From: Deltaproteobacteria bacterium PRO3
GTDB taxonomy: Bacteria > UBA10199 > DSSB01
Reading direction: 5' to 3'
Length of the DNA stretch: 39,873 nucleotides
Assembly: GCA_030263375.1 (NCBI GenBank)
Contig: SZOV01000019.1
Span: 1 to 39,873 of the forward strand
The position numbers and the translations under genes are program-made. This document shows, in pieces, positions 24,152 to 39,672 of this stretch. Within the stretch, counting starts at the first letter, position 1, and the number at the start of each line of letters is the position of its first letter. The notes beneath the pieces are model-generated. The model ran no database searches and had not been told where the DNA came from. It saw only the letters and a list, made by a program, of their open reading frames with translations.

Positions 24152-26521
24152 ATGCGATCTCAATCCCGACTAGCTCAAATTCTACTTATGGGTTGCCTTA
24201 CGGTGACGGCCGCCACGGTTTCCGGCCAAGTCCCTCCGCCGCCGCAGCCCGGTTCCAGCTACGAAGAGTTGAACGTCCCCAAGGCCGTTCCCGTCAAGCC
24301 GACCGCCGAGACGCGGGCGGCCGCCCCCGGGGCGACGCCCGGCCCCGGCGCCGACGAGGGCCTCTATCTCAACGCCGTCGATACCGACGTCCGCGAGATC
24401 ATCAAGCAGATCGCCAAGGTCACGGGCAAAAATTTTCTCGTCGACCAAAGCGTCCGCGGCAAGGTCACGATCATCTCCGAAAAGAAGATGACCATCGAGG
24501 AGGCCTACCAGGCCTTCCTTTCGGCCCTCGAGGTCCTGGGCTTCACCGTCGTCAACGCCCCCGGCGACTTGGTCAAGGTCATCCCGATGAAAGAGGCCCT
24601 GCAAAATCCGCTGCCCATCTACAAAGACGACAGCCCGGTGACCGACGCCTTCATCACCCGGCTCATTCAAATGAGGAACATCTCGGCCCTCGAGATGTCC
24701 AACGCCGTCAAGACCCTGGTCTCCAAAGAAGGCAATCTCTTCGCCTATCCGGCCACCAACACCCTGATCGTCACCGACACCGGCAGCAACATCGACCGGC
24801 TGCTCAAGATCATGAGGGAGCTCGATCAAGAAGGGCCCTCGGAGACCATCGACATTATTCCGTTGCGCTTCGCCGGCGCCAAGGACGTCGCCAATAAGAT
24901 CAACGAGCTCTACGCCGACGACCTGAAGGGCAAGGGCGCCGCCACCACGGCCGCCGCCCGCCGGCCGGCCGCGCGGGGTCCCGAGCTGGAAGAGACCCCC
25001 TACATCTCCAAGATCATCCCCGACGACCGGACCAATTCCGTCATCGTCCTGGCCAGCAAACGCGCCCTGACCAAGGTCCGCGAACTGGTCGCCCGGCTCG
25101 ACCGCAAGCTCGAGGCCGGCACCGAGGGCAAGATCCACGTCCACTACCTCAAGCACGCCAACGCCAAAGACCTTGCCCAGGTGCTGAGCACCCTGACCGC
25201 CAGCTCGGTCACCGCCAGCCGCCAGACCGCCGCCGGCACGCCGCCGGGAGGCGCCACGCCGGGCCGTCAGGCGGCCGCCACCGAGGTCACCGCCGAGTTC
25301 GAGGGCGGCGTCAAGATTGCCCCCGACGAAAACACCAACGCCTTGATCATCACCGCCACCGCCAAGGACTACAATACGCTGGCCAAAGAGGTCATCGACA
25401 AGCTCGACATCCCGCGCAAGCAGGTCTACGTCGAAGTCGTCATCATGGAATTGACCATCGACAAAAACCGCACCCTGGGCGTCAGCGGCCAGGGCGGCGG
25501 CCAGTTCAACCTGGGTGGCAACCCGACCCTGGGCTTCGGATCCTCCTTGGGCGGCACGGCGGCGGGTCTTTCGGCCGCGGCCCTAAGCGGCCTCGCGGCC
25601 GGCGTCGTCAGCCAGACGACCCAGACCATTCCGGTGACCAACGCCGACGGCACGGTCACCAACCTCGAGATCCCGACCTTCGGCGTCATCCTCAACGCCC
25701 TGCAGACCGACACCGACGTCAACGTGCTCTCGACGCCCAACTTGCTGACTCTCGACAACGAAGAGGCCGAGATCGTCGTCGGCGCCACCCAGCCCTTCCC
25801 CTCGGGCACCACCCTGACCCCGGGCGGCAACACGACCTTCAACGTCACCCGCGAGGACGTCGGTATCAAGCGCAAGATGACCCTGCAGATCAACGAGGGC
25901 GACGTCGTCAAGATCAAGCTCAAGCAGGAGATCAGCTCGGTCGTCCCCGGCGCCTCCGAGACCGTCCTGACTTCCCTCGGTCCTACGACGACGAAGCGCT
26001 CCGTCGAGACCGTGGTCGCGGCCAAGGATCAGCAGACCATCGTCATCGGCGGCCTGATCGACGACAAGGTGACCATCACCACGGCCAAGGTCCCCTTCTT
26101 GGGCGACATCCCGATCTTCGGCAACCTCTTCAAGAACAAGAAGACCACCAAGGCCAAGACCAATATCCTGGTCTTCCTGCGGCCCTTCATCATCCGAGAT
26201 TCCAAGGACTTCTTGAAAATCCTGCAAAAGAAGGTCGAAGAGCGGAACATGTTCGTTTCCCAGAACTACGGCAAGGGCCAGCAGAAGGTCATCCGTCAGT
26301 CGATCCGCAACCACGCCGCCGACTTGCTGGAATTCCGCAGGGATATCCAGCGGGTGGATTGGGAGTTCCAAAACGACACCGGCACCCGAGTGGTCCCGAT
26401 CGATACGAATCCGGATTCCTCCGGCTCCTCGTCCGGTTCGCGAGGTTCCAGCGACTCCTCGCGTCTGACCGACCACGACCAACAGCTGCTCCAAGCGGCG
26501 CAGACCGACGACGCGCGTTAG
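24152..26521 (+). CDS. gspD: type II secretion secretin GspD
   Basis: A 789-residue outer-membrane channel subunit. Signal peptide 1-26; N0 domain from about residue 67 (LYLNAVDTDVREIIKQIAKVTGKNFLVDQSV); N1-N3 KH-like domains to about 425, with Ala/Thr/Pro-rich loops; and the secretin core from about 425 (KQVYVEVVIMEL...). The core includes TDVNVLSTPNLLTLDNEEA and the conserved VPFLGDIPIFGNLFK. A polar Ser-rich tail from about 730 is where a pilotin might bind. The start is ATG with AAGGAGAA upstream. Confidence 0.96.
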   Translation: MRSQSRLAQILLMGCLTVTAATVSGQVPPPPQPGSSYEELNVPKAVPVKPTAETRAAAPGATPGPGADEGLYLNAVDTDVREIIKQIAKVTGKNFLVDQSVRGKVTIISEKKMTIEEAYQAFLSALEVLGFTVVNAPGDLVKVIPMKEALQNPLPIYKDDSPVTDAFITRLIQMRNISALEMSNAVKTLVSKEGNLFAYPATNTLIVTDTGSNIDRLLKIMRELDQEGPSETIDIIPLRFAGAKDVANKINELYADDLKGKGAATTAAARRPAARGPELEETPYISKIIPDDRTNSVIVLASKRALTKVRELVARLDRKLEAGTEGKIHVHYLKHANAKDLAQVLSTLTASSVTASRQTAAGTPPGGATPGRQAAATEVTAEFEGGVKIAPDENTNALIITATAKDYNTLAKEVIDKLDIPRKQVYVEVVIMELTIDKNRTLGVSGQGGGQFNLGGNPTLGFGSSLGGTAAGLSAAALSGLAAGVVSQTTQTIPVTNADGTVTNLEIPTFGVILNALQTDTDVNVLSTPNLLTLDNEEAEIVVGATQPFPSGTTLTPGGNTTFNVTREDVGIKRKMTLQINEGDVVKIKLKQEISSVVPGASETVLTSLGPTTTKRSVETVVAAKDQQTIVIGGLIDDKVTITTAKVPFLGDIPIFGNLFKNKKTTKAKTNILVFLRPFIIRDSKDFLKILQKKVEERNMFVSQNYGKGQQKVIRQSIRNHAADLLEFRRDIQRVDWEFQNDTGTRVVPIDTNPDSSGSSSGSRGSSDSSRLTDHDQQLLQAAQTDDAR

Positions 26522-26604
26522 GGCGTTGGTACGGCTATAGGCCTTGCTTTGGCGGCCGCGCGTCGTGCTAAGATATCCCCACCAAAACGAACGGGGTAAC
26601 GGGT

Positions 26605-28314
26605 ATGCTCGATAAAAGCTTGGGAAACATCCTTCTCGAAAACACCGCCTTAACCGAGGCCCAGCTCGAAGAGGGGCTTTTGGTCCAGCGGGAAAAGGGC
26701 ATACGCCTGGGCGAGGCCTTGATCCAGCTGCGTTTTCTCAAGTCCGAAGACATCCTCAAGGCCGTCAGCATCCAATTGGGCATCCCCTATCTCAGCAGCA
26801 TCGACCCCGAGAACATCTCCAGCGAGGCGGCCCATCCGGTTCCGATCAATTTCGCCAAGAAAAACGAGTTGATCCCGCTCGCCAAGTACGCCGACCGGGT
26901 CGAGGTTGCGATCTCCGACCCCTGCAACATCCCGGCCCTCGACGACCTGCGGATGATCTACAACACCAATATCCGGCCCATGATCGCGACCAGCGCCCAG
27001 ATCACCGACGCGATCAACACCGTCTACAACCGCAGCACGGGCGCCGACCGCACGGTGATGAGCGACCTGCAGGAGGAAAACCTCGACAACATCACCCAAG
27101 AGCTGGAAGAGCCGGTCGATCTGCTCGAGGCCGATGACGAGGCGCCGATCATCCGATTGGTCAACTCGCTCTTGTTCCGCTCGGTCAAGCAGAAGGCCAG
27201 CGACATCCACATCGAGCCCTTCGAGAAGGACTTGGTCGTCCGTTTCCGCATCGACGGCGTCCTCTACGACATCATGCACCCGCCCAAGAAGGTGCAAAAC
27301 TCGATCATCTCGCGCATCAAGATCATGGCGAATCTCAACATCGCCGAGAAGCGCCTCCCGCAGGACGGCCGCATCCGCATCAAGATCGCCGGAAAAGACA
27401 TCGATATCCGCGTCTCGACCCTGCCCACCAGCTTCGGCGAGTCGGTCGTCATGCGTCTGCTCGACAAGAGCAAGGTCCTGCTCGACCTGGGTGCGATCGG
27501 CGTCCAGGGCCAGGCCCTCGATATGATGCTCGACCTGATCAACCGCAGCCACGGCATCATCTTGGTCACGGGGCCCACCGGTTCCGGTAAAACGACGACG
27601 CTTTACGCGATGCTCTCGCAGATCAACACCACCGACCTCAAGATCATCACGGTCGAGGATCCCGTCGAGTATCAGCTGCCGGGCATCAACCAGATCCAGG
27701 TCAACCCCAAGATCGATCTCACCTTCGCCAGCGCGCTGCGGTCCATCCTGCGCCAGGACCCCGACGTCGTGATGATCGGCGAAATCCGCGATAAAGAGAC
27801 CGCCGAGATCGCCATTCAGGCCTCGCTGACCGGCCACTTGGTCATCTCGACTTTGCATACGAACGACTCGGCCTCCTCGGCCACGCGTCTGATCGACATG
27901 GGCGTCGAGCCCTTCCTGGTCGCCTCCTCGGTGATCGGCATCATCGCCCAGCGCCTGGTCCGCACCATCTGCAAGGAGTGCCGCGAGCGCTACATGCCCA
28001 GCGACTTCGAGCTGATGCAGCTGGGGCTGAAGCGCGAAGACGTTGCGGACAAGTTCGTCTACAAGGCCAAGGGCTGCTCCGCCTGCCTGGACACCGGCTA
28101 TTCCGGCCGTTTGGGCGTCCACGAGATCATGATGATGGACGATGAGGTGCGCGCGATGGTCATGAAGAACGCCGACGCCCCTAGCATCAAGAAGAAGGCG
28201 ATGGAGAAGGGCATGAAGACCCTCCGCGAGGTCGCCGCCGACAAGGTCCTGCAGGGGGAGACGACGATCGAGGAGATCCTCCGCGTCACGCAGGAGGACG
28301 TCGTCCGCGGCTGA
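26605..28314 (+). CDS. gspE: type II secretion ATPase GspE
   Basis: A 569-residue hexameric ATPase. The N-terminal N1E (T2SSE_N) domain begins LGNILLENTALTEAQLEEGL; the C-terminal motor has Walker A GPTGSGKT (323-330), Asp box TVEDPVEY (349-356), Walker B-type DPDVVMIGEIRD (385-396) and His box HLVISTLHTN (411-420). The zinc-binding four-Cys element is complete (Cys456, Cys459, Cys491, Cys494), as in GspE/PilB. It powers pseudopilus assembly from the cytosolic face. Confidence 0.97.
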   Translation: MLDKSLGNILLENTALTEAQLEEGLLVQREKGIRLGEALIQLRFLKSEDILKAVSIQLGIPYLSSIDPENISSEAAHPVPINFAKKNELIPLAKYADRVEVAISDPCNIPALDDLRMIYNTNIRPMIATSAQITDAINTVYNRSTGADRTVMSDLQEENLDNITQELEEPVDLLEADDEAPIIRLVNSLLFRSVKQKASDIHIEPFEKDLVVRFRIDGVLYDIMHPPKKVQNSIISRIKIMANLNIAEKRLPQDGRIRIKIAGKDIDIRVSTLPTSFGESVVMRLLDKSKVLLDLGAIGVQGQALDMMLDLINRSHGIILVTGPTGSGKTTTLYAMLSQINTTDLKIITVEDPVEYQLPGINQIQVNPKIDLTFASALRSILRQDPDVVMIGEIRDKETAEIAIQASLTGHLVISTLHTNDSASSATRLIDMGVEPFLVASSVIGIIAQRLVRTICKECRERYMPSDFELMQLGLKREDVADKFVYKAKGCSACLDTGYSGRLGVHEIMMMDDEVRAMVMKNADAPSIKKKAMEKGMKTLREVAADKVLQGETTIEEILRVTQEDVVRG

Positions 28315-28419
28315 TCCCTGGAGGAGGGGATTGTCCCCAAACCTTCCCGCCGGTTGGCGCGTTAAAAACCGACGAGGCTTCCGAACCGCTTCAAGCCCTG
28401 ATATCGACTCAATATTCCG

Positions 28420-29652
28420 ATGCCCGTATTTTCATACAAAGGAATGGACGCCGCCGGCAAGAAGACCGCCGGCATCATCGACGCCGAAAACCTCAAGGCG
28501 GCGCGGGCCAAGCTGCGCAAGATCAACGTCTTTCCCACCGAAGTGGTCGAGGGCGGCAAAAGTGGGAGCGGCGCGATCGGGTCGGCGGGCGGCTTCGACC
28601 TGAAGAAATTTTTCAACAAGCCCAAGGTCAACGACGTCGCCAATATGACGCGGCAGCTCTCGACCCTGATCAACGCCAACATCCCCTTAGTCGACGCCCT
28701 TTCCGCCCTGGTCGAGCAGATCGAGCAGCCCACCCTCAAATCGGCCCTCTCCGAGATCCGCGAGAAGGTCCGCGAGGGTATCCGGCTGGCCGACGCCATG
28801 CGCGCCTACCCGCACATCTTCGGCGATCTCTACATCAACATGGTCCACGCCGGCGAGGTCTCGGGCGCCCTCGACACCGTCCTGGTCCGGCTTGCGGACT
28901 TCACTGAGGGCCAGGCCCGCCTGAACAGCAAGGTAAAAGGCGCCCTGACCTACCCGGTCGTCATGGGCGTGGTCGGCATCGTCCTGATGAGCTTCCTCCT
29001 GGTTTTCGTCGTCCCGAAGATTGCCAAGATCTTCGAGGACGCGAAAGCGACCTTGCCGCTCCCGACCCGCGTCATGCTGGGGATCAGCGGCTTTTTGCAA
29101 AATTATTGGTATATCGCGATCATCGTGGTCGCGATCATTTTCTACGCGGTCAAGAAGTACAAGGTCAAGCCCAACGGCCGGAAGTTCTTCGACAAGATGA
29201 GCCTGAGGATGCCGATCTTCGGGGACATGTTCCGGATGATCGCCGTCAGCCGCTTCTGCCGGACCCTCTCGACCCTCCTGGGCGCGGGCGTCCAGCTGAT
29301 GCCCTCCCTCGACATCGTCAAGGGCATCGTCGACAACGTGGTCCTGACGGAGGTCATCGAGGAGACCCGCAACTCGGTCAAGGAGGGCGAATCCATCGCC
29401 GAGCCGCTCAAACGCAGCGGCCAGTTTCCGCCCCTGGTGACCCACATGATCGGCATTGGCGAGAAGACCGGCGAGCTCGAGACCATGCTCGAGAAGGTGG
29501 CCGACACCTACGACGACCAGGTCGAGACCAAGGTCTCCACCTTGACGACCCTGCTCGAGCCCCTGATGATCGTGGTGATGGGCGGCGTCGTCGCGGCCAT
29601 CGTCCTCTCGATTTTATTGCCGATTTTGAAGATGAACCAGATGGTCCGCTAG
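28420..29652 (+). CDS. gspF: type II secretion platform protein GspF
   Basis: A 410-residue inner-membrane platform protein. It opens MPVFSYKGMDAAGKKTAGIIDAEN and has two T2SSF cytosolic domains (about 75-200 and 265-385), each with family motifs (TRQLSTLINANIPLVDAL; CRTLSTLLGAGVQLM). There are three membrane spans, near 180-200, 225-245 and at the C-terminus (MIVVMGGVVAAIVLSILLPI). No clear ribosome site precedes the ATG; the 105-base gap from gspE contains nothing else recognisable. Confidence 0.96.
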   Translation: MPVFSYKGMDAAGKKTAGIIDAENLKAARAKLRKINVFPTEVVEGGKSGSGAIGSAGGFDLKKFFNKPKVNDVANMTRQLSTLINANIPLVDALSALVEQIEQPTLKSALSEIREKVREGIRLADAMRAYPHIFGDLYINMVHAGEVSGALDTVLVRLADFTEGQARLNSKVKGALTYPVVMGVVGIVLMSFLLVFVVPKIAKIFEDAKATLPLPTRVMLGISGFLQNYWYIAIIVVAIIFYAVKKYKVKPNGRKFFDKMSLRMPIFGDMFRMIAVSRFCRTLSTLLGAGVQLMPSLDIVKGIVDNVVLTEVIEETRNSVKEGESIAEPLKRSGQFPPLVTHMIGIGEKTGELETMLEKVADTYDDQVETKVSTLTTLLEPLMIVVMGGVVAAIVLSILLPILKMNQMVR

Positions 29653-29698
29653 CCGGTCCCACGGGGTGGGTAGCGGAACTGATTGAAATAACTTGCTA

Positions 29699-29715
29699 AA
29701 AATATTGAATATTTT
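29699..29715 (+). promoter_or_regulatory. AT-rich palindrome upstream of gspG
   Basis: AAAATAT (29699-29705), TGA, ATATTTT (29709-29715): a perfect inverted repeat in an AT-rich stretch between gspF and gspG. It may be part of an internal promoter or regulator site raising major-pseudopilin expression; no hexamers were convincingly placed. Confidence 0.35.
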
Positions 29716-29778
29716 AAAACGGAACCCAGATCTGTTACGTTAAGCCATTATCGTCCCGTTATGGACAGGAGGGGAAAT

Positions 29779-30252
29779 ATGTCTTTCAGGGGTGTCGCCA
29801 AAGTCCTTCGCAGCCAGGCCGGTATGACCCTCATCGAAATCATGGTCGTCGTCGCCATCATCGGTTCGATCGCGGCCCTGGTCACGGTGAACGTCTTGAA
29901 TTATCTGGACGAGTCCAAGGTCGAGACCACCAAGATCCAAATGAAGAACGTCGAGGGCGCCCTCGACCAATACAAGCGCCGCCACGGCTCCTACCCCACC
30001 ACCGAGCAGGGCCTCTCCGCCCTGGTCGAGAAGCCCACGGTAGGCAAGGTTCCCGACAACTATCCCCCCGACGGCTACCTGAAGGCCGTGCCCAAGGACG
30101 GCTGGGGCAACGATTTCATCTACGCCTCGCCGGGGACGGCCGGGCACAAGATCGAGATCATCTCCTACGGCGGCGACGGGCAGGAGGGCGGCGAAGGCTT
30201 CGACGCCGACATCACCAATTACGAGGTCAAGGAAGAGGCAAAGACGGAGTAG
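29779..30252 (+). CDS. gspG: major pseudopilin GspG
   Basis: A 157-residue type IV pilin-like protein forming the body of the pseudopilus. The leader ends AG|MTLIEIMVVVAIIG, with cleavage after Gly15 and Glu at mature position 5. Position +1 is Met rather than the usual Phe. The C-terminal YGGDGQEGGEGFDADI corresponds to the GspG calcium-binding loop. ATG at 29779 is chosen because AGGAGG lies six bases upstream; the upstream ATG at 29761 precedes that ribosome site. It should be processed by a prepilin peptidase encoded outside the window. Confidence 0.95.
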   Translation: MSFRGVAKVLRSQAGMTLIEIMVVVAIIGSIAALVTVNVLNYLDESKVETTKIQMKNVEGALDQYKRRHGSYPTTEQGLSALVEKPTVGKVPDNYPPDGYLKAVPKDGWGNDFIYASPGTAGHKIEIISYGGDGQEGGEGFDADITNYEVKEEAKTE

Positions 30253-30365
30253 GGGCGGGCCGGGCCGTCGATCCGAGCCTGCGTGGATTTGAAATTTTCT
30301 TGGGCCTGGCGCCGGGGCTTCTTATGAGCCCCCGCGGCAAGGCCTTTTTTTTGAGGGGCTGGGGA

Positions 30366-31013
30366 ATGCGTCTTCAAAGGTCCGACGCCCGGGGTTTCAC
30401 CCTGATCGAGATCATGATCGTCGTGCTCATCATCGCCTTGATGATGGGCATGGGCGTGGCCATCCTCTTTCCCGGCAACGAGGCCAAGCTCCGAGAGCAA
30501 TCCGCCAAGCTGGCAGGCACGATCAAATTCCTCTACAACGAGGCCGCCGTCAAAAATAAATACTACCGCCTGGTCTTTGACCTCGACCAGCAGAGCTACG
30601 CCGTCGAATCCAGCACCGAGCCCTTCCTGGTCCGCATGATCGAGGAAGATCCCAAAAAGAACGCCGCCAAGGACGAGGCCCCCGCCGAGGGCGAACCGGG
30701 CGCCACGCCCGCCGCGGGTTTCACCGGCGAGGAGGGCATGCTGGTCCAGACGACCAAGCTGCCGGCGGGGATCAAGTTCAAGGACGTCTTCGTCATGCAC
30801 CACAAAGAGCGGCAGGAGAGGGGCAAAGTCGAGGCCTATTTCTTCCCCAACGGCTTCGTCGAGCCCCTGGTCGTCAACTTGACCGACGAAGACGAGCAGA
30901 GCTTTTATTCCCTGCAGGTGAATCCCCTGACCGGTCGGTCCAAGATCCGCAGCGAGTACTACGAGGCCAAACCGGAAGAGCTCGTTCCGCAGCCGCAGGA
31001 GGGCTCGTCATGA
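30366..31013 (+). CDS. gspH: minor pseudopilin GspH
   Basis: A 215-residue pseudopilin with cleavage site RG|FTLIEIMIVVLIIAL (after Gly10). The globular part carries an acidic Ala/Glu/Pro/Gly-rich insertion (EDPKKNAAKDEAPAEGEPG and onwards, about residues 98-125) not typical of the family. The ATG at 30366 gives the usual short leader, preceded by GAGGGG. Its stop overlaps gspI as ATGA. Confidence 0.88.
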   Translation: MRLQRSDARGFTLIEIMIVVLIIALMMGMGVAILFPGNEAKLREQSAKLAGTIKFLYNEAAVKNKYYRLVFDLDQQSYAVESSTEPFLVRMIEEDPKKNAAKDEAPAEGEPGATPAAGFTGEEGMLVQTTKLPAGIKFKDVFVMHHKERQERGKVEAYFFPNGFVEPLVVNLTDEDEQSFYSLQVNPLTGRSKIRSEYYEAKPEELVPQPQEGSS

Positions 31014-31561
31014 GGCGCAGGACCGCCGGCTCCGCGGGCTTCACGCTGATCGAGATCATGATCTCGCTCTCCATCCTCTCCATTTCGCTGCTCAGCATCT
31101 ACGCTGCCCAGGGCAACTCGCTGCGCGCCAGCGGTCGCGCCGAGAACATCCAAACCGCCTCGATGCTGGCGCGGCAGAAGATGACCGAAAAGATGATCGA
31201 ACTGCAGAAGGACCTCGATAAGGGCAAGTTTCCCGACGAGCAGATCAACGACCAGGGCGAATTCGAACCGCCTTTCGAGCGCTTCCGCTGGGAATTCGCC
31301 GTGCGCAAGGTCGAGATTCCGGTGGTGCAGGCCCCCGGCCAGGAAGGAGGGGATGCCTCCGGCGGCGGGCCCGCCACCAGCGATGGGAAAGAGCCCGGCG
31401 CCGCCAACCAGGCTCCGCAGGCGGCGACGGAAAATTTGGCCAAGATGGTCACTAAAAAAATCAGCGAATCGGTGCGCGAGATCACCACCAAGGTCATCTG
31501 GCAGGAGCTGGAGGAGGACCAAACCCTGGTGGTGACGACGCACATCGCAAAACTGCAATGA
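31010..31561 (+). CDS. gspI: minor pseudopilin GspI
   Basis: A 183-residue pseudopilin with cleavage site AG|FTLIEIMISLSILS (after Gly10) followed by QGNSLRASGRAENIQTASMLARQKM, typical of GspI. A Gly/Ala/Pro/Asn-rich insertion lies at about residues 108-145. GspI nucleates the tip complex with GspJ and GspK. It overlaps both neighbours by four bases (ATGA at each junction). Confidence 0.88.
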   Translation: MRRRTAGSAGFTLIEIMISLSILSISLLSIYAAQGNSLRASGRAENIQTASMLARQKMTEKMIELQKDLDKGKFPDEQINDQGEFEPPFERFRWEFAVRKVEIPVVQAPGQEGGDASGGGPATSDGKEPGAANQAPQAATENLAKMVTKKISESVREITTKVIWQELEEDQTLVVTTHIAKLQ

Positions 31562-32223
31562 AGTCGCAATTGGGACAAAAAGGGTTCACACTCCTCGAAG
31601 TCATGATCGCCATGTCCATCCTGGCGGCGATGGCCCTGGGCATGTTCGTGGCCGCCCAGCAGACCCTCAACAGCAAGGCCAGCACCGAGGACCGCGACGA
31701 CGCCAACCACTCGGTGGTGCAGGCCCTCAACCGCATTTCCGAGGACCTCGACATGGCGATCATGGTGAAGAGCAAGGACCTGCTGGGGCTCACCTTCGAC
31801 GGGGAATACGCCTTCGAGGGCGGGGAGTCGCGCCTGGATTTCGTCAGCTTCTCGCACCAGCGCTTCATCGCCGATGCCAAGGAGAGCGATCTGGCCGAGG
31901 TGAGCTACTACCTCGTGCCCATGCCCGACGAGGCGGGGCGGAACATGCTGATGCGGCGCGAGGCGACCAAGATCGACAAAAATCTCCAGGAGGGCGGCAC
32001 CGCCTTTCCCCTGCTGGAGAACGTCGAGAGCCTGAGTTTCGAGTATCTCGATCCCAAGTCGGGCGAGTTCAAGAAGACCTGGGACTCGAAGTCCATCGAT
32101 TTCAACAACCAGCTGCCGCAGGCCGTCAAGATCACCATCGAGGCCTTCCTCCCGGAGGAAGAGCAAAAGACCGTCTTCGCGACGATCGCCCCGATCCGGA
32201 TGACGAAGCCGATTTCTTTCTAA
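31558..32223 (+). CDS. gspJ: minor pseudopilin GspJ
   Basis: A 221-residue pseudopilin with cleavage site KG|FTLLEVMIAMSILAAMALG (after Gly9). The downstream text (NRISEDLDMAI; YYLVPMPDEAGRNMLMRREA; LSFEYLDPKSGEFKKTWDS) fits the GspJ beta domain. It starts in the ATGA overlap with gspI and ends one base before gspK. Confidence 0.93.
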   Translation: MKSQLGQKGFTLLEVMIAMSILAAMALGMFVAAQQTLNSKASTEDRDDANHSVVQALNRISEDLDMAIMVKSKDLLGLTFDGEYAFEGGESRLDFVSFSHQRFIADAKESDLAEVSYYLVPMPDEAGRNMLMRREATKIDKNLQEGGTAFPLLENVESLSFEYLDPKSGEFKKTWDSKSIDFNNQLPQAVKITIEAFLPEEEQKTVFATIAPIRMTKPISF

Positions 32224-32224
32224 G

Positions 32225-33547
32225 ATGCGCACCACGGCTCCAAAACCGAATCGCCGTTCCGCCCGGGGCATCGCCCTGCTGATGGTGCTCGCCTCGCTCG
32301 CCATCCTGAGCAGCCTGGTCGTCGAGTTCGCCTACAACAGCAACGTGACCTACAACTTGGCCCTCAACCAGAAGGACCGGGTTCAGGCCTACTACCTGGC
32401 CGAGTCGGCGCTCAATTTCAGCAAGCTGATCCTGAAATTCGACAAGGAGGCCCGCAAACTCGCCGGCGAGGCCAGCAACAAGCTGGGACGTACCATCCAG
32501 ATCCAGCCCCTCTACGAGATGATCCCGCTGAATTCCGAGATCCTGCGCGGCGTCGCCCAGATGGAAGGGGGGGCGGCCCCGGAAGGGGGCGAGGGCGAGG
32601 AGGGGGGCGAGGCCGCCCCGGAGGGTAGCCCCGCGGCGGGGGGCGGCGAGGCCTTGGGCGGCTTCAACCTCAAGGGGGCGGAGTCCTTCCTGGCCTTCGA
32701 GGGGAACTTCGCCTCCGAGATCGGCGAAGAAGACGCCAAGCTCAATGTCAACGCCTTTTTCAACCTTCAGCCCACGCAAAAAAGCTATGAGCGGCTCAAG
32801 AGCACGCTGTATCATCTCCTCCTGACCGACGAGTTCAAGGGGCTCTTCGAGGACAAGTTCCGCGGGGCCAAGGACCTGGCGCAGAACATCGCCGACTACA
32901 TCGACAAGGACGACGCCCAAAACGAGCCGGGCGGCCAGGAGCGCGGCCGGGAAGGCGTGGGCGGCGGTCTCCAGGTCACGATGAAAAACGCCAAGCTGCT
33001 CTCCGTGGAAGAGCTCATGACGGTGCCGGGGATGACCGAGGATATCTTCCAGAAGCTGAAGCCTTACGTCACCGTCTACGGGGGCGACGAGAAGATCTTC
33101 GTGTGCCGGGCCAAGGACCCCTTGGTGAAGTCCCTGATCCTGGCCTACACCGAGAACAACCCCCGGATGGAGCCGGTCCGGGACGACAACATCGAGTTGT
33201 TGACCAAGGCCTTCGACGCCGTGCTAAATAGTTGCCCGGACACCCAGGCTATGGCAAACAGCCTGGACCAGGCCTTGGGGGTGGTACAGCCCGAAAATAC
33301 CCCAAGTCCTTCCAGCGCGGCGCGGGCGGGAGGTCCGACTTCGACGCTGACCGGGGCCACCTCGGGCGGCGGCGCCGGGCTGGGGCAGAGCGATAAATTT
33401 ACGGACATGGTCAAAAACGAAAACAAAATCTTCTCCGTCATCGGCATCGGCACCGTCGGCGAGACCGAGGTCAAATTGAAGACCGTCCTCGACACCAGCA
33501 ATCCCAACCCCAACCGCTGGACGATGCTGTATTGGAGGGTCGAATAG
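32225..33547 (+). CDS. gspK: pseudopilus tip protein GspK
   Basis: A 440-residue large pseudopilin. The leader ends ARG|IALLMVLASLAILSSLVVEF; as is usual for GspK, mature position 5 is not Glu. A Gly/Glu/Ala-rich insertion at about 114-150 precedes the helical domain (FASEIGEEDAKLNVNAFFNL, YHLLLTDEFKGLFEDKF, ADYIDKDD). A SAM-like segment MTVPGMTEDIFQKLKPYVTVYG follows. The TAG stop shares its last base with the GTG start of gspL. Confidence 0.93.
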   Translation: MRTTAPKPNRRSARGIALLMVLASLAILSSLVVEFAYNSNVTYNLALNQKDRVQAYYLAESALNFSKLILKFDKEARKLAGEASNKLGRTIQIQPLYEMIPLNSEILRGVAQMEGGAAPEGGEGEEGGEAAPEGSPAAGGGEALGGFNLKGAESFLAFEGNFASEIGEEDAKLNVNAFFNLQPTQKSYERLKSTLYHLLLTDEFKGLFEDKFRGAKDLAQNIADYIDKDDAQNEPGGQERGREGVGGGLQVTMKNAKLLSVEELMTVPGMTEDIFQKLKPYVTVYGGDEKIFVCRAKDPLVKSLILAYTENNPRMEPVRDDNIELLTKAFDAVLNSCPDTQAMANSLDQALGVVQPENTPSPSSAARAGGPTSTLTGATSGGGAGLGQSDKFTDMVKNENKIFSVIGIGTVGETEVKLKTVLDTSNPNPNRWTMLYWRVE

Positions 33548-35133
33548 TGGCCCAAACCGTCCTCGGCATCGACCTCGGCAGCTATTCGGTGAAGATCGCC
33601 CAAGTCGAACGCGGCTTCGGCGAGTTCAAGCTCGTCAACTTCTTCGAGGTGCCCCTGGTCGCCGAGGAAGTGCTCAGCTACGAGCAATCCGCGTCGGCGG
33701 CCCTGACTAAGTTCGTCCAAGAAAACGCGATCAACTACGACACCTGCGTCGTCTCCCTCCCCGGAAGCCTGGCCTCCTTCCGCACGCTGAGCATGCCCTT
33801 CGGCAACGTCAAGAAGATCGACCAGACCCTCGAGTTCGAGCTCGAGACCCTGATCCCCTTCGACATCGAGGAGGTGCTGTTCGACTACACGATCCTCTCG
33901 AGCACGCCGCAGGAGTCCAAAGTCCTGGTGGCCTATCTCAAGGACGCCGATTTCAAGCGCTTCCTGACCCAGATCCAGACCAGCGGGATCGACCCCCGCT
34001 ACATGGGGATCGACACGGTCGACCTCTCCTACCTGAGCTTCCCGGGATTTCTGCCGCCCGAGGGCCAGTACGCCCTTTTGGACCTGGGCCACAGCAAGGC
34101 CAACCTGATGATCCTCGAGGGGAACAAGATCAAGGGACTGCGTTGCCTGAGCTGGGGCGGCCATCACCTCACCCAGGCGGTGGCCAAGGCCCTCGAGATT
34201 CCCTACGACAAGGCCGAGGCCTGGAAGCACGCCAAAGGCCAGGTCCTGGCGGGCGCCGAAGACCCCGGCCTCAAGGCGATCTACGCCAGCGTCGAAGACC
34301 TCCAGCAGCAACTGAAGCAGACCTTGTTCGCCTTCTACGAGTCCGGCGAGCGCCCCATCGAGGCCCTCTACCTCTCCGGGGGCAGCTCGCGGCTGCTCGG
34401 CATCGACTCTTTCTTCTCCAGCCGCCTCAACATCAACGTCAGCCAGCTCGACGTGCTCGACGACAGCTTCACCGAGCTGCACGACCGCGAGGGCGCGCGG
34501 CACGTGATCCCGACCGCCTTCGCCGAGGCGCTGCGCGCGGTCTACCCGAACAAGGGCGCCAAGATCAATTTCCGCCGCGGCGACTACGCCTACAAGAAAG
34601 ACATCGAGCAGATCGGCGGCTCGCTCAAGCGCATCGGCCTGGTCGCCGCCTCGGTGGCGGTCCTGGCCCTGGCTTATTTCATCATGGCCTACATGACGCT
34701 CTCCTCGCAGGTCGACAAGATGAATAAAAACGTCGCCAAGATGGTCAAGGCCTCGGTCCCCGACCTGCCCAAGGGCGGCGCCCAGTCGGCCAAGCAGGCC
34801 GTCACCGTGCTCGACGGCCGCATCTCGGCGATCTCCGAGAAGCTCAAGCGGGTGGAGGGCGGCGGCTCGGTCAGCGCCCTCGAATTGCTAAAGATGATCT
34901 CGGGGGCGATGCCGCCGCGCGACGAGCTGATCGTCGACATCGACGACCTCAACATCGCGCCCGAGCGGGTGCGGCTCGAGGGGCGCACGGTCTCCTACGA
35001 GGGCGTCGACAAGGTCAAGGCTTCCATGGAGAAGGTGAAGATCTTCAAAAACGTGCAGACGGGCAACGTGCGCAAGGGAGTGCGGGACGAGATCAAGTTC
35101 AGCCTCTCCTTCGACGTGGTCACCGGCGGGTAA
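33547..35133 (+). CDS. gspL: type II secretion protein GspL with complete PilM-like actin fold
   Basis: A 528-residue protein. The cytosolic half is actin-like: GIDLGSYSVK (7-16), FELETLIPFD typical of PilM, ALLDLGHSKANLMIL (about 178-192) and LYLSGGSSRLLGI (about 278-290). One membrane helix follows (about 365-387, GLVAASVAVLALAYFIMAYM), then a PilN-like periplasmic ferredoxin fold ending SFDVVTGG. It couples GspE to the platform. GTG at 33547 was chosen because GGAGG lies directly upstream; an in-frame TTG at 33532 has no ribosome site. The phosphate-loop-like motifs look intact, unlike many GspL. Confidence 0.9.
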   Translation: MAQTVLGIDLGSYSVKIAQVERGFGEFKLVNFFEVPLVAEEVLSYEQSASAALTKFVQENAINYDTCVVSLPGSLASFRTLSMPFGNVKKIDQTLEFELETLIPFDIEEVLFDYTILSSTPQESKVLVAYLKDADFKRFLTQIQTSGIDPRYMGIDTVDLSYLSFPGFLPPEGQYALLDLGHSKANLMILEGNKIKGLRCLSWGGHHLTQAVAKALEIPYDKAEAWKHAKGQVLAGAEDPGLKAIYASVEDLQQQLKQTLFAFYESGERPIEALYLSGGSSRLLGIDSFFSSRLNINVSQLDVLDDSFTELHDREGARHVIPTAFAEALRAVYPNKGAKINFRRGDYAYKKDIEQIGGSLKRIGLVAASVAVLALAYFIMAYMTLSSQVDKMNKNVAKMVKASVPDLPKGGAQSAKQAVTVLDGRISAISEKLKRVEGGGSVSALELLKMISGAMPPRDELIVDIDDLNIAPERVRLEGRTVSYEGVDKVKASMEKVKIFKNVQTGNVRKGVRDEIKFSLSFDVVTGG

Positions 35134-35144
35134 GGGCGCAACGG

Positions 35145-35765
35145 ATGGCGAAATCGGGAAAATACTCCTGGAAAGAGCGGCTCAACCTCGAAGAGCTCTA
35201 CAACACCTTCATCGGCTTCGCCCCGCGCGAGCAGATCCTGGTGGGCGTCGGCGTCGGCGTGGGCCTGCTGCTATTGATCCTCATTCCCTTCGCCTGCGGA
35301 TCCTCGCGATTAAGCAAGCTCGAGAGCCAGATCCAAAGCCACGAGAAGAACGTCAGCAAGGTCGTCGACAAGATCACCGAGTTGCAGCAGGCCCAGGCCA
35401 AGATGAAGGCCGTCGAATCCCGCATCCGGCCCAAGTCGCAGGTGCAGCTGACCACCAAGCTCGAAGCCCTCGCCACCCAGAGCGGGATCGGTCAGAACAT
35501 CGATTCGCTCAAGGAAATGCCGGGCACGCCGGGCGAGGACTTCGAAGAGATGGTCGTCGCGGTCCGCTTGTCCCGGCTCAGCCTGAGCCAGCTGATCGAA
35601 TTCCTCTACGGCATCGAAAGCCAAAGCGACATGAGTCTGCAGGTCAAACGACTCCAGCTCAAGCCACGCTACGACAACCGCCAGCAGTTCGACGCCAACT
35701 TCGAGATCAGCACCTATGTCAGCACCGCGCCCGCCGGCGAGGCGCCCGCGGGCGGAGGAGGTTGA
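35145..35765 (+). CDS. gspM: type II secretion protein GspM
   Basis: A 206-residue bitopic membrane protein. A basic N-terminus is followed by one transmembrane helix (about 29-50, ILVGVGVGVGLLLLILIPFACG), a coiled-coil-like helix (LSKLESQIQSHEKNVSKVVDKI) and a ferredoxin-like periplasmic domain (SLSQLIEFLYGIESQSDMSLQVKRLQLKP). Equivalent to PilO in pili. The identification rests partly on position between gspL and gspN. Its Gly/Ala-rich tail carries the next gene's ribosome site. Confidence 0.9.
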   Translation: MAKSGKYSWKERLNLEELYNTFIGFAPREQILVGVGVGVGLLLLILIPFACGSSRLSKLESQIQSHEKNVSKVVDKITELQQAQAKMKAVESRIRPKSQVQLTTKLEALATQSGIGQNIDSLKEMPGTPGEDFEEMVVAVRLSRLSLSQLIEFLYGIESQSDMSLQVKRLQLKPRYDNRQQFDANFEISTYVSTAPAGEAPAGGGG

Positions 35766-35770
35766 GCGCC

Positions 35771-36706
35771 GTGAAAAACTCCAAGTTTCGCATGCTCGTC
35801 TACGTCGGGGCCGGCCTGTTCTTCTTTCTGTTCTGGCTGGTCTGGGTCTTCCCCACCGACGCACTCAAGTCCCGCATCCTCACCGAGATCGAAAACCAGA
35901 CGCAGGGCCGCTACAAGTTCGACGTCGGCTCGCTCGACGTCAGCATCTTCGGCAGCGTCACCTTTAACAATCTGAAGGTCTCCGAGGGCGTGGGGGAGGG
36001 CGAGAAGGTCCTGCTCAAGACCCCCAAGCTCAAGCTGAGTTTTTCGCCCTTCGCCTTGGCCAGCATGGCGAAGAGTCCCAACCTCGACTTCTACCTGAAG
36101 GGCAGTAAGGGCGATCTGGAAGGCAATTTCCAACAGGACGGCGACGAACTGCGCCTGACCGCTAGCTTCGACCAGTTTCCGATCTCGGACTTGGGCGTCA
36201 TCGGCGCCAAGGCCAAGCTGGACTTAAGCGGCACCGTGGACGGCGACATCGACCTGCAGTTGAACCGCGCCGATGCGGCCAAAAACTCCGGCAAGATAGA
36301 CCTCTCCCTGATCAACCTGACGATGGGACCGAAGCGGGTCTCGATCGACCCCAGCTCGCCCGAGGCCTCGATGGAGATTCCCGAGATCAAGCTGAGCGGC
36401 GGCAAGGACTCCGGGATCCGAGGCGAGGTGAATAAAGAAAACCTCGAGCTCAACTCCATCAAGCTGCAGGGCGGGGACCTCGATCTCGACTTGAGCGGCC
36501 GCGTGGTCTTGCAGGGCGCCAAGGCCGGGGATTACCGGCTCGCCCTCCAGGGCGGCTTTTCCATCGCCGAGGCCCTAGCCAAGGCCTTGCCCTTCCTCTT
36601 CATCATCGAGCAGCAGAAGAATCCCCAGGGCGTCTATCCCCTCAACATCACTGGAAGGTTGGGGAAACCCAGCATCCGCATCGGCACCTTTCAGTTGCCG
36701 ATCTAA
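35771..36706 (+). CDS. gspN: type II secretion protein GspN
   Basis: A 311-residue protein with one N-terminal membrane helix (LVYVGAGLFFFLFWLVWVF) and a long beta-rich periplasmic part. AsmA-like strands occur, for example YKFDVGSLDVSIFGSVTFNNLKV and YPLNITGRLGKPSIRIGTFQLPI at the end. GspN is found in the T2SS operons of Deltaproteobacteria, Xanthomonas and others; its role is uncertain. GTG at 35771 follows GGAGGAGG by about nine bases. The TTG at 35762, overlapping the gspM stop, abuts that ribosome site and is less likely. Confidence 0.85.
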   Translation: MKNSKFRMLVYVGAGLFFFLFWLVWVFPTDALKSRILTEIENQTQGRYKFDVGSLDVSIFGSVTFNNLKVSEGVGEGEKVLLKTPKLKLSFSPFALASMAKSPNLDFYLKGSKGDLEGNFQQDGDELRLTASFDQFPISDLGVIGAKAKLDLSGTVDGDIDLQLNRADAAKNSGKIDLSLINLTMGPKRVSIDPSSPEASMEIPEIKLSGGKDSGIRGEVNKENLELNSIKLQGGDLDLDLSGRVVLQGAKAGDYRLALQGGFSIAEALAKALPFLFIIEQQKNPQGVYPLNITGRLGKPSIRIGTFQLPI

Positions 36707-36816: not shown

Positions 36817-39672
36817 ATGTCCCCGCCTGTATTTCCATCCCTAAGGGCCCTTGCCTCGCCCCGCGCGGCCGAGACCGGCGCCATCGCGGCTGAGTCGGAG
36901 ACCAACGCCCTCTTGGCCTTCAGCCTGGGCGCCGACTCCCTACGCGGCGGAGCGGAGGAGGGTCGCCGCCTCGAGGTCCTTTGGGGCAGGGCAGCGCTCG
37001 CCGAGCTGGAGGCCTTGAAGGCGGAAAGCGATCCTCAGCTTGTTTTCGAAGGCCTCGGCGCCCTGGCGACCCGTCTGGCCGCCGAGGACCGTCTGGAGGC
37101 CGCGCAGGCGGCCTACGCCTTCATCGCCGGGCGGGCGGCGGACTCGGCCCCCGCGGCGGCACGTCGGGCCCAAGAGGAATGGGATGCCATTCGGGGCCGG
37201 GGGGCCTTGGGGCCGCGACTGGAATTTTTGGGCCGGCGCTTCGCCCGCGAGGCCTCGAGCCCCGCCATGCTGGCCGGGATGGGCGTCGCCTCCACCGTCT
37301 TTCAGCTTTCGCGGGCCGCTTTCTTGGCCCGCCTCACCGCGACGCCCAGCCTGGGCCTCCTCTCGCGAGGTTTCGGCGCCCGCGCTGTCGCCGGCCTGGG
37401 TGCCTTCGCCCTCGAGGCCCCGGCCTTCGCCCTGACCGCCCGCGGGGCCCGCCTCGCCTTGGGAGACCCAGCCGCGACCGCGGCGCCGCTGGGCCATGAG
37501 ATCCTCGGTTCCTATCTCACGCTCGGCGGCTTGAAGCTTTTCGGCGGCCTGGGCGCGGCGGCCGTCCGCTACGCGGGGGCGGGGCCGGTTTCGCGTACTC
37601 TGATTCCGCAGATTTCCACTTATTTTGGGATCGTGGCCGGACATCGCCTCGAGCAGCTCGCGGGCCTGCGCCCCGCCTTGAGCGGTGACACCCTGTGGGC
37701 GGATTCCCTGGTGACCTTGCTGCAATTCCACGTCGGCGGGCGTCTGGCCGGCGAGCTGGGCGGGCCGCGGCTGGCGGCCTGGCAACGCGAGTTGGAGCTG
37801 CGCGGGGCCGTGCTCGCGCGCGAACCGGAAGGAAGTGGGAGCGAGCCTCGGCGTCCTGGCTGGGCCCCGACCTGGCTGCTCGGCGAGGCCGCTATGGCGG
37901 CGCCGGCGGGCGGCCCAAGCGGCCGCGAGCTGCCGAATATCTTCATGATGCAGGGCCCGGAAGGCGGCGGCGGGAGACCTCGCGGCGAACGACTTGCCGC
38001 GGGGGGCAACGGAAGCCGTCGAGGATCCGTGCCGTTGGGCGAGCGCAACGCCTACCAGATCGTGCAGGAATTGCTGCGTTGCCGCGAGCGTTCGCGCCGC
38101 GGCGGCCAAGATCTCAGTCTCTGGCAGCTGATGCGGCGCAAGCTCGAGGCGGGGAGCATCCCGGCCGAACGCGCCGAGGAGCTGCAATGGGCCGTCTTCG
38201 CCTACAGCCTCTTCGAGAATTCCCCGATCCTGCGCCGCGAGTTCGCCCGCGGGGTCTCGGACAACTTCGAGACGGTCGCCTACCGGCTCAACGCCCTGCG
38301 CGCCGAGGTGGCGCGCGAGCAGGGCCAGGACAATTACTCGCTCGGGACCCTGGTCCAAGCCCTCGCCTACGGCGGGAGGATTCCCTTCGAGAAGACGCGC
38401 CAATATCTCTCGGCCGCCTCCGCCTTGGATTTCTACCTGCAAACCCCCAGCCTGCGCTCGATCGGCAAGGAGCATTTTTCGGATCCCTATCGCCTGATCC
38501 GCCGCCTGCGCGAGCTGATGCCCGCCATTGAGGAGCGCCGGGAGCACAGCTACAAGCTCTCCACCTTGGTCGACGCCCTGCGCTGGCACCCGCATTTCCC
38601 CAGGTCCCAGCTGCAGGCCTACACCATGGCCGCCGCGGCCAGCGATTTCGTGCGGGCCCTGCCGCTGGAGCGCCTGCGCCTGGCTCCGGCGCAGTTGCGC
38701 GGCCTCGACATCGAGCAGATCTACCTGAGGCTCCTGCACCTCAAGCCCGTCTTGCGCGGCGAATCGGGAGACCCCGTGACGATCGGCTACGTCCTTTCCG
38801 GATTGCGCAGCGAAGGCCTGGTTAAGATCAAAGGTGGGACGGTCAACGACAGCGCCTTGACCAACGCCCACGTCCTCGACTTCGCCTTCAACCGCTGGTC
38901 CGAGTGGGGCGGTCATTATCGCAACCTCGCGGAGATCCCGAGGAACGGCGAGGGGAGCGGAGCGCGCGCCGGATGGACCCGCCCCCGATACGCGCAGCGC
39001 TTTCTTTTGAAGGAGAACGGGCAACCCTACAGCTACTCCTACGCGGGGAACCTGGTGCGTTGGGGCGAATTTTTATGGAACCACCGCGAGGCCCTACAAT
39101 TGCCTGAGCCGGGTCACGTGGAGGTGCCGCCGCTGGCGTCCTCGCGACGCACGCGGCTCTTGGCCTTCCTCGAGCCTCACTGGGAGGCCCTGCGCGAGAA
39201 GGCGCCGGTGCCGGAGGAGTTTTTCGAGGGGCTGGCCGGCCTGCGGCAGCAGTTTCAGCGCAGCGCCGAGGAGCGTTCGGCGGTCGCCGAGGGCGAGCCG
39301 GGGGAGGTTCCTTCGCTGCGGATTATGGTCGGGGCCTTCTTCAAGGCGAAAGGGGCCGAGATCCCGCGGAGCCTCGAGGTCTATGCCGCGACGATCGACA
39401 CGATCTTACAGCGCTGGCCGGAGTGGCGGCGCCACCTGCGCCGCTTAAGCGAGGTCACGGCGCGCGGGCACGCCGGGGCGCGGGAGCGCTACCGCATCGC
39501 GGAGGAGGGTTTCCAGCAGGCCAACGGCGAGCCTTATTCCCGCACGATTCTCGGCGGCCTGATCCGCTGGGGTTCCTGGGTCTGGGAGCACCGCGGCCGG
39601 CTGGGCCTGCGCAGTGGGGAATCCACGGTGCCGCCACCCGGCGACGAGTCGGGACGCGAGAGTGGCGAATAA
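36817..39672 (+). CDS. 951-residue protein of unknown function with internal repeats
   Basis: No known family recognised. Residues 1-130 are helical and Ala/Glu/Arg-rich with no signal peptide. About 150-330 is Gly/Ala-rich and hydrophobic (GLGAFALEAPAFALTARGA; HEILGSYLTLGGLKLFGGL), possibly membrane-associating. From about 430 there are repeated units beginning at residues 431, 504, 576 and 651, recognisable by SLGTLVQAL, KLSTLVDAL, TIGYVLSGL and DFYLQTP, DFVRALP. A fifth, diverged copy starts near 830. Two copies of another module, NGQPYSYSYAGNLVRWGEFLWNH and NGEPYSRTILGGLIRWGSWVWEH, follow units four and five. It lies 110 bases after gspN, but no functional link is shown. Confidence 0.75.
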   Translation: MSPPVFPSLRALASPRAAETGAIAAESETNALLAFSLGADSLRGGAEEGRRLEVLWGRAALAELEALKAESDPQLVFEGLGALATRLAAEDRLEAAQAAYAFIAGRAADSAPAAARRAQEEWDAIRGRGALGPRLEFLGRRFAREASSPAMLAGMGVASTVFQLSRAAFLARLTATPSLGLLSRGFGARAVAGLGAFALEAPAFALTARGARLALGDPAATAAPLGHEILGSYLTLGGLKLFGGLGAAAVRYAGAGPVSRTLIPQISTYFGIVAGHRLEQLAGLRPALSGDTLWADSLVTLLQFHVGGRLAGELGGPRLAAWQRELELRGAVLAREPEGSGSEPRRPGWAPTWLLGEAAMAAPAGGPSGRELPNIFMMQGPEGGGGRPRGERLAAGGNGSRRGSVPLGERNAYQIVQELLRCRERSRRGGQDLSLWQLMRRKLEAGSIPAERAEELQWAVFAYSLFENSPILRREFARGVSDNFETVAYRLNALRAEVAREQGQDNYSLGTLVQALAYGGRIPFEKTRQYLSAASALDFYLQTPSLRSIGKEHFSDPYRLIRRLRELMPAIEERREHSYKLSTLVDALRWHPHFPRSQLQAYTMAAAASDFVRALPLERLRLAPAQLRGLDIEQIYLRLLHLKPVLRGESGDPVTIGYVLSGLRSEGLVKIKGGTVNDSALTNAHVLDFAFNRWSEWGGHYRNLAEIPRNGEGSGARAGWTRPRYAQRFLLKENGQPYSYSYAGNLVRWGEFLWNHREALQLPEPGHVEVPPLASSRRTRLLAFLEPHWEALREKAPVPEEFFEGLAGLRQQFQRSAEERSAVAEGEPGEVPSLRIMVGAFFKAKGAEIPRSLEVYAATIDTILQRWPEWRRHLRRLSEVTARGHAGARERYRIAEEGFQQANGEPYSRTILGGLIRWGSWVWEHRGRLGLRSGESTVPPPGDESGRESGE

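Follow-up and report, generated by a model that had tools for sequence, protein, structure and literature searches.

PAS/GAF-type input domains stand before many kinase, cyclase and transcription outputs. Chlamydial Inc proteins, of which there are many per genome, are exported, carry a strongly hydrophobic bilobed hairpin and are defined by a common region, being otherwise unrelated in sequence. We analysed P0001, a 951-residue open reading frame (ORF) in a 39,873-nucleotide stretch of Deltaproteobacteria bacterium PRO3 (contig SZOV01000019.1, positions 1 to 39,873; hereafter the window), and found that its N-terminal domain (N-dom) is shared by about eighty proteins of the same genome, in which it is fused to many different C-terminal parts (payloads). 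Like the Inc proteins, these proteins of one genome are united solely by a shared region, but N-dom spans ~320 residues, is by its hydropathy not classically transmembrane and precedes recognised payloads that are metabolic enzymes and regulators. It resembles PAS/GAF domains as a single domain heading many outputs, and differs from them in being larger, all-helical in its structure model, found in few genomes of one class, and present also at the head of metabolic enzymes and a repeat protein. We propose, with a probability of roughly 0.45, that N-dom is a common docking or localisation module and that P0001 is one stable client with a helical-repeat payload.

Whole P0001 gave 81 matches in its own genome, on 55 contigs and with P0001 itself included; all 80 others fell inside P0001 residues 4–454. 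An iterated hidden Markov model (HMM) search over the ORFs of the 58 match-bearing stretches and the window detected N-dom in 80 ORFs. The number of N-dom genes, ~80, is inexact, since contig ends truncate some ORFs and a TGA codon interrupts one gene. Counted from the beginning of the stop-to-stop ORF, the domain mostly starts no later than residue ~140; in two ORFs it starts at 200–204 and in five at 320–582. In P0001 the family HMM extends to about residue 377, into the linker that follows. A model's earlier reading of the window, made from its letters only (the sequence-only reading), had correctly marked off a separate N-terminal domain but missed its wider significance as a domain of 80 ORFs. 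The search for paralogs of P0001 that it proposed was answered by N-dom and not by the payload: five jackhmmer rounds over the fetched own-genome ORFs found no relative of the latter besides P0001.

N-dom is expanded in five of the 46 class genomes and rare in three. Matches to P0001 numbered 62, 65, 31 and 78 in genomes G001–G004, respectively, and two in G007; with an alignment of 60 N-dom copies of sufficient length (A1), six were found in G007, two in G012 and one in G019. Eight of 40 genomes carried the domain, the own genome included, with no more than 56 candidates per genome being scored in the richest, and none was detected in G005 or G006 of the same family. With a listed completeness of 99% and contamination of 1%, G004 shows that the expansion is not a binning artefact. 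Among 290 genomes, nine had N-dom at 1e-5; the only one outside the class (4.8e-6 over 79 columns) is regarded as a chance match. By name, it was traced to the metagenome-assembled genomes (MAGs) JADYZQ (SJ577) and JAIOPF (LakeFargette/Lac Pavin), both labelled Deltaproteobacteria, which judging by their contig coordinates are probably G002 and G001, respectively. No paper on this shared N-terminal domain appeared among the titles and abstract openings seen in a literature search, which does not establish its absence from print.

The payloads of 67 N-dom proteins, some of them cut by contig ends, formed 47 clusters, 40 of which were singletons (blastp, 1e-5). A bulk Pfam scan of all 67 recognised 54 families at 1e-3, 25 of them listed; single scans of 48 found a family at 1e-3 in 21 (above a curated cut-off in 20) and none in 27. 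Recognised payloads include two multidomain acetyl-CoA carboxylases, part of a Fas1/AflB-type fatty acid synthase cut by a contig end, a ketoacyl-synthase C domain, an aminotransferase with a methyltransferase, and an amino acid permease. Others carry four histidine-kinase ATPase domains, two of them with PAS, a helix-turn-helix (HTH) domain alone or with GGDEF, sigma-70 region 4 with ResIII, sigma-70 regions 2–4 with amine oxidase (in the TGA-split gene), a Ser/Thr kinase, FHA (twice) and HEAT (twice). Five of the eight N-dom proteins of G007, G012 and G019 had a Pfam match, namely proline dehydrogenase with aldehyde dehydrogenase, histidine-kinase ATPase, Ser/Thr kinase with FGE-sulfatase, a Gp49-like domain, and TPR. 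The Gp49-like domain, on one G007 protein, belongs to a family that includes HigB-type toxins; no toxin domain was among the families listed for the 48 singly scanned payloads of the own genome.

Relatives of payloads were also found in other ORFs. Biotin carboxylases in ORFs of ~520 residues, too short to hold N-dom as well, coexist with the fusion (e.g. in G000, G002 and G004). The PutA payload of G007 was matched in 22 of the 46 class genomes (G007 included) by ORFs of 488 to 6454 residues, many over the second half only, the N-dom status of these ORFs being judged solely from the N-dom searches. In another class member, the PutA-like stretch lies inside the open frame of 6454 residues (G024:C5:78239-80806). 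Within the own genome, contig C78 (L030:2759-15154) has adjacent N-dom genes for an acetyl-CoA carboxylase and the Fas1-type fatty acid synthase part, and on contig C62 (L025:3-16726) neighbouring N-dom genes likewise encode an acetyl-CoA carboxylase and a ketoacyl synthase; both gene sets resemble lipid or polyketide clusters. The gene with the sigma-70 and amine oxidase payload (L022:5292-8957, minus strand) has its TGA inside N-dom, and an uninterrupted relative is present in L085 (payload identity 86%).

N-dom and payload have mostly been inherited together. We compared 26 cross-species pairs, each joining an N-dom protein of a named MAG to the own-genome protein that matches its payload (blastp, 1e-20). 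In 18 of them, including all 13 with payload identity of at least 84%, the closest N-dom was that of the payload partner; identities to other paralogs were computed on the columns shared in each comparison, with a minimum of 100. A cruder first comparison of 44 gave 15 same, 13 different and 16 without a payload match, with several of the differences involving N-doms truncated by contig ends. Within the genome, N-dom identity averages 36% (1939 pairs).

Behind N-dom and a linker, P0001 carries three tandem units of a 74-residue repeat with the consensus Y-S-L-x-T-L-x-x-A-L-x-x-x-G, followed by two copies of another module (Table 1). In a shuffle test of 28 segment pairs (500 shuffles each; floor p = 0.002), units 1 and 2 and units 2 and 3 reached the floor, and the direct comparison of units 1 and 3 was at chance (p = 0.83). 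Profile–profile comparison with profiles of four orthologs gave E = 6e-9 for units 1 and 2, 5e-9 over 45 columns for units 2 and 3, and 0.038 for units 1 and 3, which, their direct match being weak, are connected by way of unit 2 and the repeat family at large. A jackhmmer search of eight proteins seeded with a repeat unit of G043 recovered all three units at the per-domain E-values (iE) of Table 1, which are flattering and not independent since the profile came to contain the P0001 units. Independent sequence evidence is weaker, the C-terminus of P0001 having matched one genome, G043, over the second unit at E = 3.7e-9.

The sequence-only reading, which spanned P0001 residues 431–934, had counted five units, starting at residues 431, 504, 576, 651 and ~830, and a second module behind the last two. 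The first three are genuine repeats by shuffle test and profile, whereas the regions at 651 and ~830 belong to the module of ~90 residues. The supposed fourth unit gave shuffle p-values of 0.75, 0.37 and 0.018 with units 3, 2 and 1, respectively, the fourth and fifth matched each other at the floor, and either compared with the modules gave 0.012–0.064. A profile of 23 repeat units covered just 12–16 columns of these two regions at E = 0.02–0.05. We rejected five equal units because both regions fail this profile; a profile row joining the fourth unit to the third at 1.7e-7 was disregarded, as 12 residues were common to both cuts. The duplicated pair that had been described in the C-terminal part proved genuine, the two module copies reaching the shuffle floor in addition to their profile match. 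From these comparisons, P0001 consists of three repeats and two copies of another module, not of five repeats and two modules. In repeat-bearing relatives the tail behind the repeats resembles the module (hhalign E = 1.8e-4 to 4e-3, probability 8–48%), which is only suggestive of a relationship.

The C-terminal part was matched in eight of 60 genomes, the own genome included. There was one ortholog each in G002 (94% identity), G001 (62%) and G004 (46%), and shorter matches were found in G043, G028, G037 and G023 (E = 3.7e-9 to 5.7e-3), whose proteins carry several repeat units each according to jackhmmer. The 23-unit alignment (A3, from seven proteins) detected the repeat in nine of the 46 class genomes, and a search of 290 genomes returned the identical nine and none besides. 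Seven of these nine contributed units to A3 and the eighth, G002, has a near-identical ortholog; the wide search adds just G041 (best E = 3e-6) and the absence elsewhere. Repeat proteins without N-dom occur in five of the nine (G043, G028, G037, G023 and, weakly, G041), no N-dom having been found in the ORFs of those stretches. The gene context of these repeat-only relatives, viewed by eye from printed protein starts, had no common theme.

P0001 matched no Pfam family and no PDB sequence at E ≤ 1 and nothing in PHROGs at 0.01, and NCBIfam gave a single meaningless line (E = 0.086); the bulk payload scan likewise assigned no Pfam family to its C-terminus. Four class relatives scanned on Pfam had no family above its cut-off. 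One relative, L112, weakly matched DUF7437 (1.6e-5, below the family cut-off) and phrog_1174 (5e-4), both of unknown function, and a relative matched the PDB sequence 2rdc at E = 0.006. The proposal of a new repeat family, with no clear match to a known domain, is thus supported as far as the searched family libraries go.

The AlphaFold2 model of N-dom (residues 41–399, 38 alignment rows) is all-helical, with a mean predicted local distance difference test score (pLDDT) of 83.8 and a predicted template modelling score (pTM) of 0.74. Short hairpins extend to model residue ~85 and are followed by six helices of 16–44 residues and a disordered end, the linker having a pLDDT of 67 in the block from residue 331 and then 42–53. 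The best rows of a structural aligner (VIA) were mostly TPR proteins (Z 8.1–8.9), led by LGN (82 residues, root-mean-square deviation (rmsd) 5.4), with the membrane carrier UCP1 at Z 8.4 (163 residues, rmsd 4.1). Model residues ~4–103 (P0001 44–143) align as helical hairpins with LGN, kinesin light chain and IFIT1, but no Pfam TPR model matches P0001 and the long helices of N-dom are hardly covered. N-dom contains 17.6% Ala, 14.6% Leu and 12.8% Gly. Its maximum 19-residue Kyte–Doolittle window averages 1.40, and 55 of the 60 copies never reach 1.6, so a strongly hydrophobic transmembrane hairpin of the Inc kind was not seen in them. The membrane association suggested for the Gly/Ala-rich N-terminal third found little support in these values.

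The C-terminal model, built from three aligned orthologs (mean pLDDT 82.4, pTM 0.59), is helical except for a short hairpin near model residues 269–275 and single bridge residues. Structure prediction had been proposed as a check on the repeats, and the model has recurring long-short-long helices through units 1–3. Foldseek found no match for it at E ≤ 0.001 in the PDB (best E = 0.38) or among the BFVD viral models, the latter searched with this model alone. The best VIA score was Z 5.1, and neither it nor the scores of the N-dom model were taken as membership; fold families absent from the VIA lists are not thereby excluded, and lack of a match is no proof that the fold is new. P0001 shares tandem all-helical units, three in sequence, with HEAT/PPR alpha-solenoids, and differs from them in its 74-residue unit with a short middle helix and in matching no HEAT, ARM or PPR model.

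P0001 is under purifying selection. Compared with L098, its ratio of nonsynonymous to synonymous substitution rates (dN/dS) was 0.14 over 948 codons, with 0.15 for N-dom, 0.22 for the repeats, 0.34 for the linker, and 0.03 (residues 648–775) and 0.05 (residues 836–935) for the module regions. Against L097, with synonymous sites near saturation, it was 0.18 overall, 0.16 for N-dom, 0.19 for the repeats, and 0.16 and 0.19 for the modules.

N-dom is best read as a docking or localisation module because its clients share little beyond being intracellular. Its helical head of ~100 residues, which looks TPR-like, and the six long Ala/Leu/Gly-rich helices behind it would gather a wide range of mostly cytoplasmic proteins, unrelated in function, at a single common partner or place in the cell. 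The P0001 payload, with its three 74-residue units and duplicated module, is a helical-repeat protein of a class-wide kind whose repeats would bind a partner, and P0001 would most likely serve as a binding scaffold at the site of N-dom. We infer that N-dom was joined to an older repeat protein of the class rather than lost elsewhere. Several results weigh against this reading. The N-dom model had no Foldseek match in the PDB at E ≤ 0.001, and by the aligner's own note the TPR-like Z-scores fall in a range common for helical models. In eight of the 26 cross-species pairs (payload identity 42–67%), another paralog's N-dom is closer, although some of these partners may not be orthologs. Two paralogs whose C-termini do not cluster are 91% identical in N-dom DNA over 654 bases, a sign of occasional exchange between paralogs; such exchange would weaken a payload-specific role. 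The strong constraint on the modules appeared against L098 and not against L097, and they are therefore no proven contact surface. A sensor role is also in keeping with the data, since many of the Pfam-matched payloads are regulatory outputs.

Such a sensory or regulatory input domain, through which a common signal would control the attached output as with PAS or GAF, is the main rival, possible though somewhat unlikely. The kinases, GGDEF, sigma-70, HTH, FHA and PAS payloads speak for it, but acetyl-CoA carboxylases, a fatty acid synthase part, an aminotransferase-methyltransferase, a permease and the P0001 repeats would be unusual outputs, and two of the four N-dom histidine kinases have PAS domains of their own. 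We find it improbable that N-dom is a weakly hydrophobic membrane-inserting or self-assembling domain, forming a membrane patch or protein shell that carries clients. Its composition, long helices and alignment with UCP1 are in keeping with that idea, whereas the UCP1 score lies within the range of unrelated helical proteins and just five of 60 copies reach a hydropathy of 1.6. Of the two folds suggested by the sequence-only reading, an HTH array or an alpha-solenoid, an all-helical array fits the model, whereas the HTH array, which would make P0001 a nucleoid or regulatory protein that binds DNA through its repeats, has little positive evidence and is very doubtful. In the model, the middle helix of each unit is short and precedes a long one, the consensus resembles HTH recognition-helix patterns, and the computed isoelectric point of the whole C-terminal part (9.7) speaks mildly for it. 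Mildly against it is the low net charge (+9 over 223 repeat residues, 0 and +3 in the two module regions), and no HTH model in Pfam or NCBIfam matches P0001, although such models match other paralogs. Finally, a polymorphic delivery domain for secreted toxins or effectors, with P0001 exported by the adjacent type II system, is barely credible. One head with many tails, the Gp49-like domain and the conserved position of P0001 behind the gsp genes in three genomes of the genus would suit it; polymorphic toxins were set aside because the payloads recognised comprise enzymes and regulators that work inside the cell, besides one permease. Moreover, inspection of the printed leaders by eye revealed no signal peptide (no predictor was run), the N-dom matches are scattered over 55 contigs, and the G004 ortholog is not beside gsp genes, on a contig that leaves 1.7 kb upstream.

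Should a single domain direct about eighty unrelated proteins to the same place or partner, the lineage would have a general organising principle. The strongest form of the docking reading, in which the ~320-residue helical domain is a general address tag that brings some eighty proteins, among them acetyl-CoA carboxylase, fatty acid synthase, histidine kinases, sigma factors and repeat scaffolds, to one assembly or compartment, would amount to a protein-based type of organisation that is not known from bacteria, and we regard it as unlikely. Were N-dom a new input domain instead, it would be a main regulatory head of these bacteria. The class-restricted repeat and N-dom are two domain families absent from the searched libraries, and N-dom would serve as a common label for dozens of hypothetical proteins from several genomes.

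Table 1 Features of P0001 and its neighbourhood in the window.
Feature	Position	Strand	Description
P0001	36817..39672	+	951-aa ORF: N-dom, linker, 3 helical repeats, 2 terminal-module copies
N-dom	36982..37806	+	P0001 residues 56-330; all-helical (model); common to 80 ORFs of the genome
Linker	37807..38088	+	P0001 residues 331-424; low pLDDT, top dN/dS vs L098
74-aa repeat unit 1	38098..38310	+	Residues 428-498; iE 5.5e-23 to profile containing unit 1
74-aa repeat unit 2	38311..38529	+	Residues 499-571; iE 4.2e-31 (profile contains unit 2); independent G043 match
74-aa repeat unit 3	38533..38742	+	Residues 573-642; iE 5.8e-19 to profile containing unit 3
Terminal module copy A	38824..39102	+	Residues 670-762; profile match to copy B, E 1.7e-18
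Terminal module copy B	39343..39609	+	Residues 843-931; profile match to copy A, E 1.7e-18
Type II secretion operon (context)	24152..36706	+	Upstream of P0001; Pfam scan of nine genes

P0001 lies directly 3' of a type II secretion operon. In the Pfam scan, which left the H- and J-position genes aside, seven of nine genes matched type II secretion system or PilM families (GspD, E, F, G, K, PilM/GspL-like and GspM), the I-position gene was matched by its N-methylation motif alone, and the last gene had no family; P0001 itself matched no secretion family. The gene order gspK-L-M-N-P0001 is conserved in the window, L097 and L098, from three genomes of the genus. The G004 ortholog (L190) has no match to the window's gsp proteins nearby, its contig ending 1.7 kb upstream. 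The linkage of P0001 to the gsp genes is probably incidental.

Two short elements recur in the N-dom stretches. One is an interspersed element, resembling REPIN/GTAG-type repeats, in which two copies of GTAGGGGCGAACCTTGTGTTCGCCC in inverted orientation flank a short loop. It occurs inside N-dom ORFs and elsewhere (about L033:1764-1830, L038:959-1025 and L045:192-250; also L029:7246 and L073:1020), and eight of its 23 binned matches in 677 kb, representing four elements, fall in N-dom ORFs. The other is the 28-base palindrome GTAGGGGCCGTTCGCGAACGGCCCCTAC, one frame of which reads GAVRERPL, found in own-genome stretches L023-L064 (e.g. about L025:12950 and L034:7190). Sixteen of its 23 binned matches lie in N-dom ORFs, in stretches that were chosen for N-dom genes, and GAVRERPL-like letters appear at two places of the N-dom alignment.

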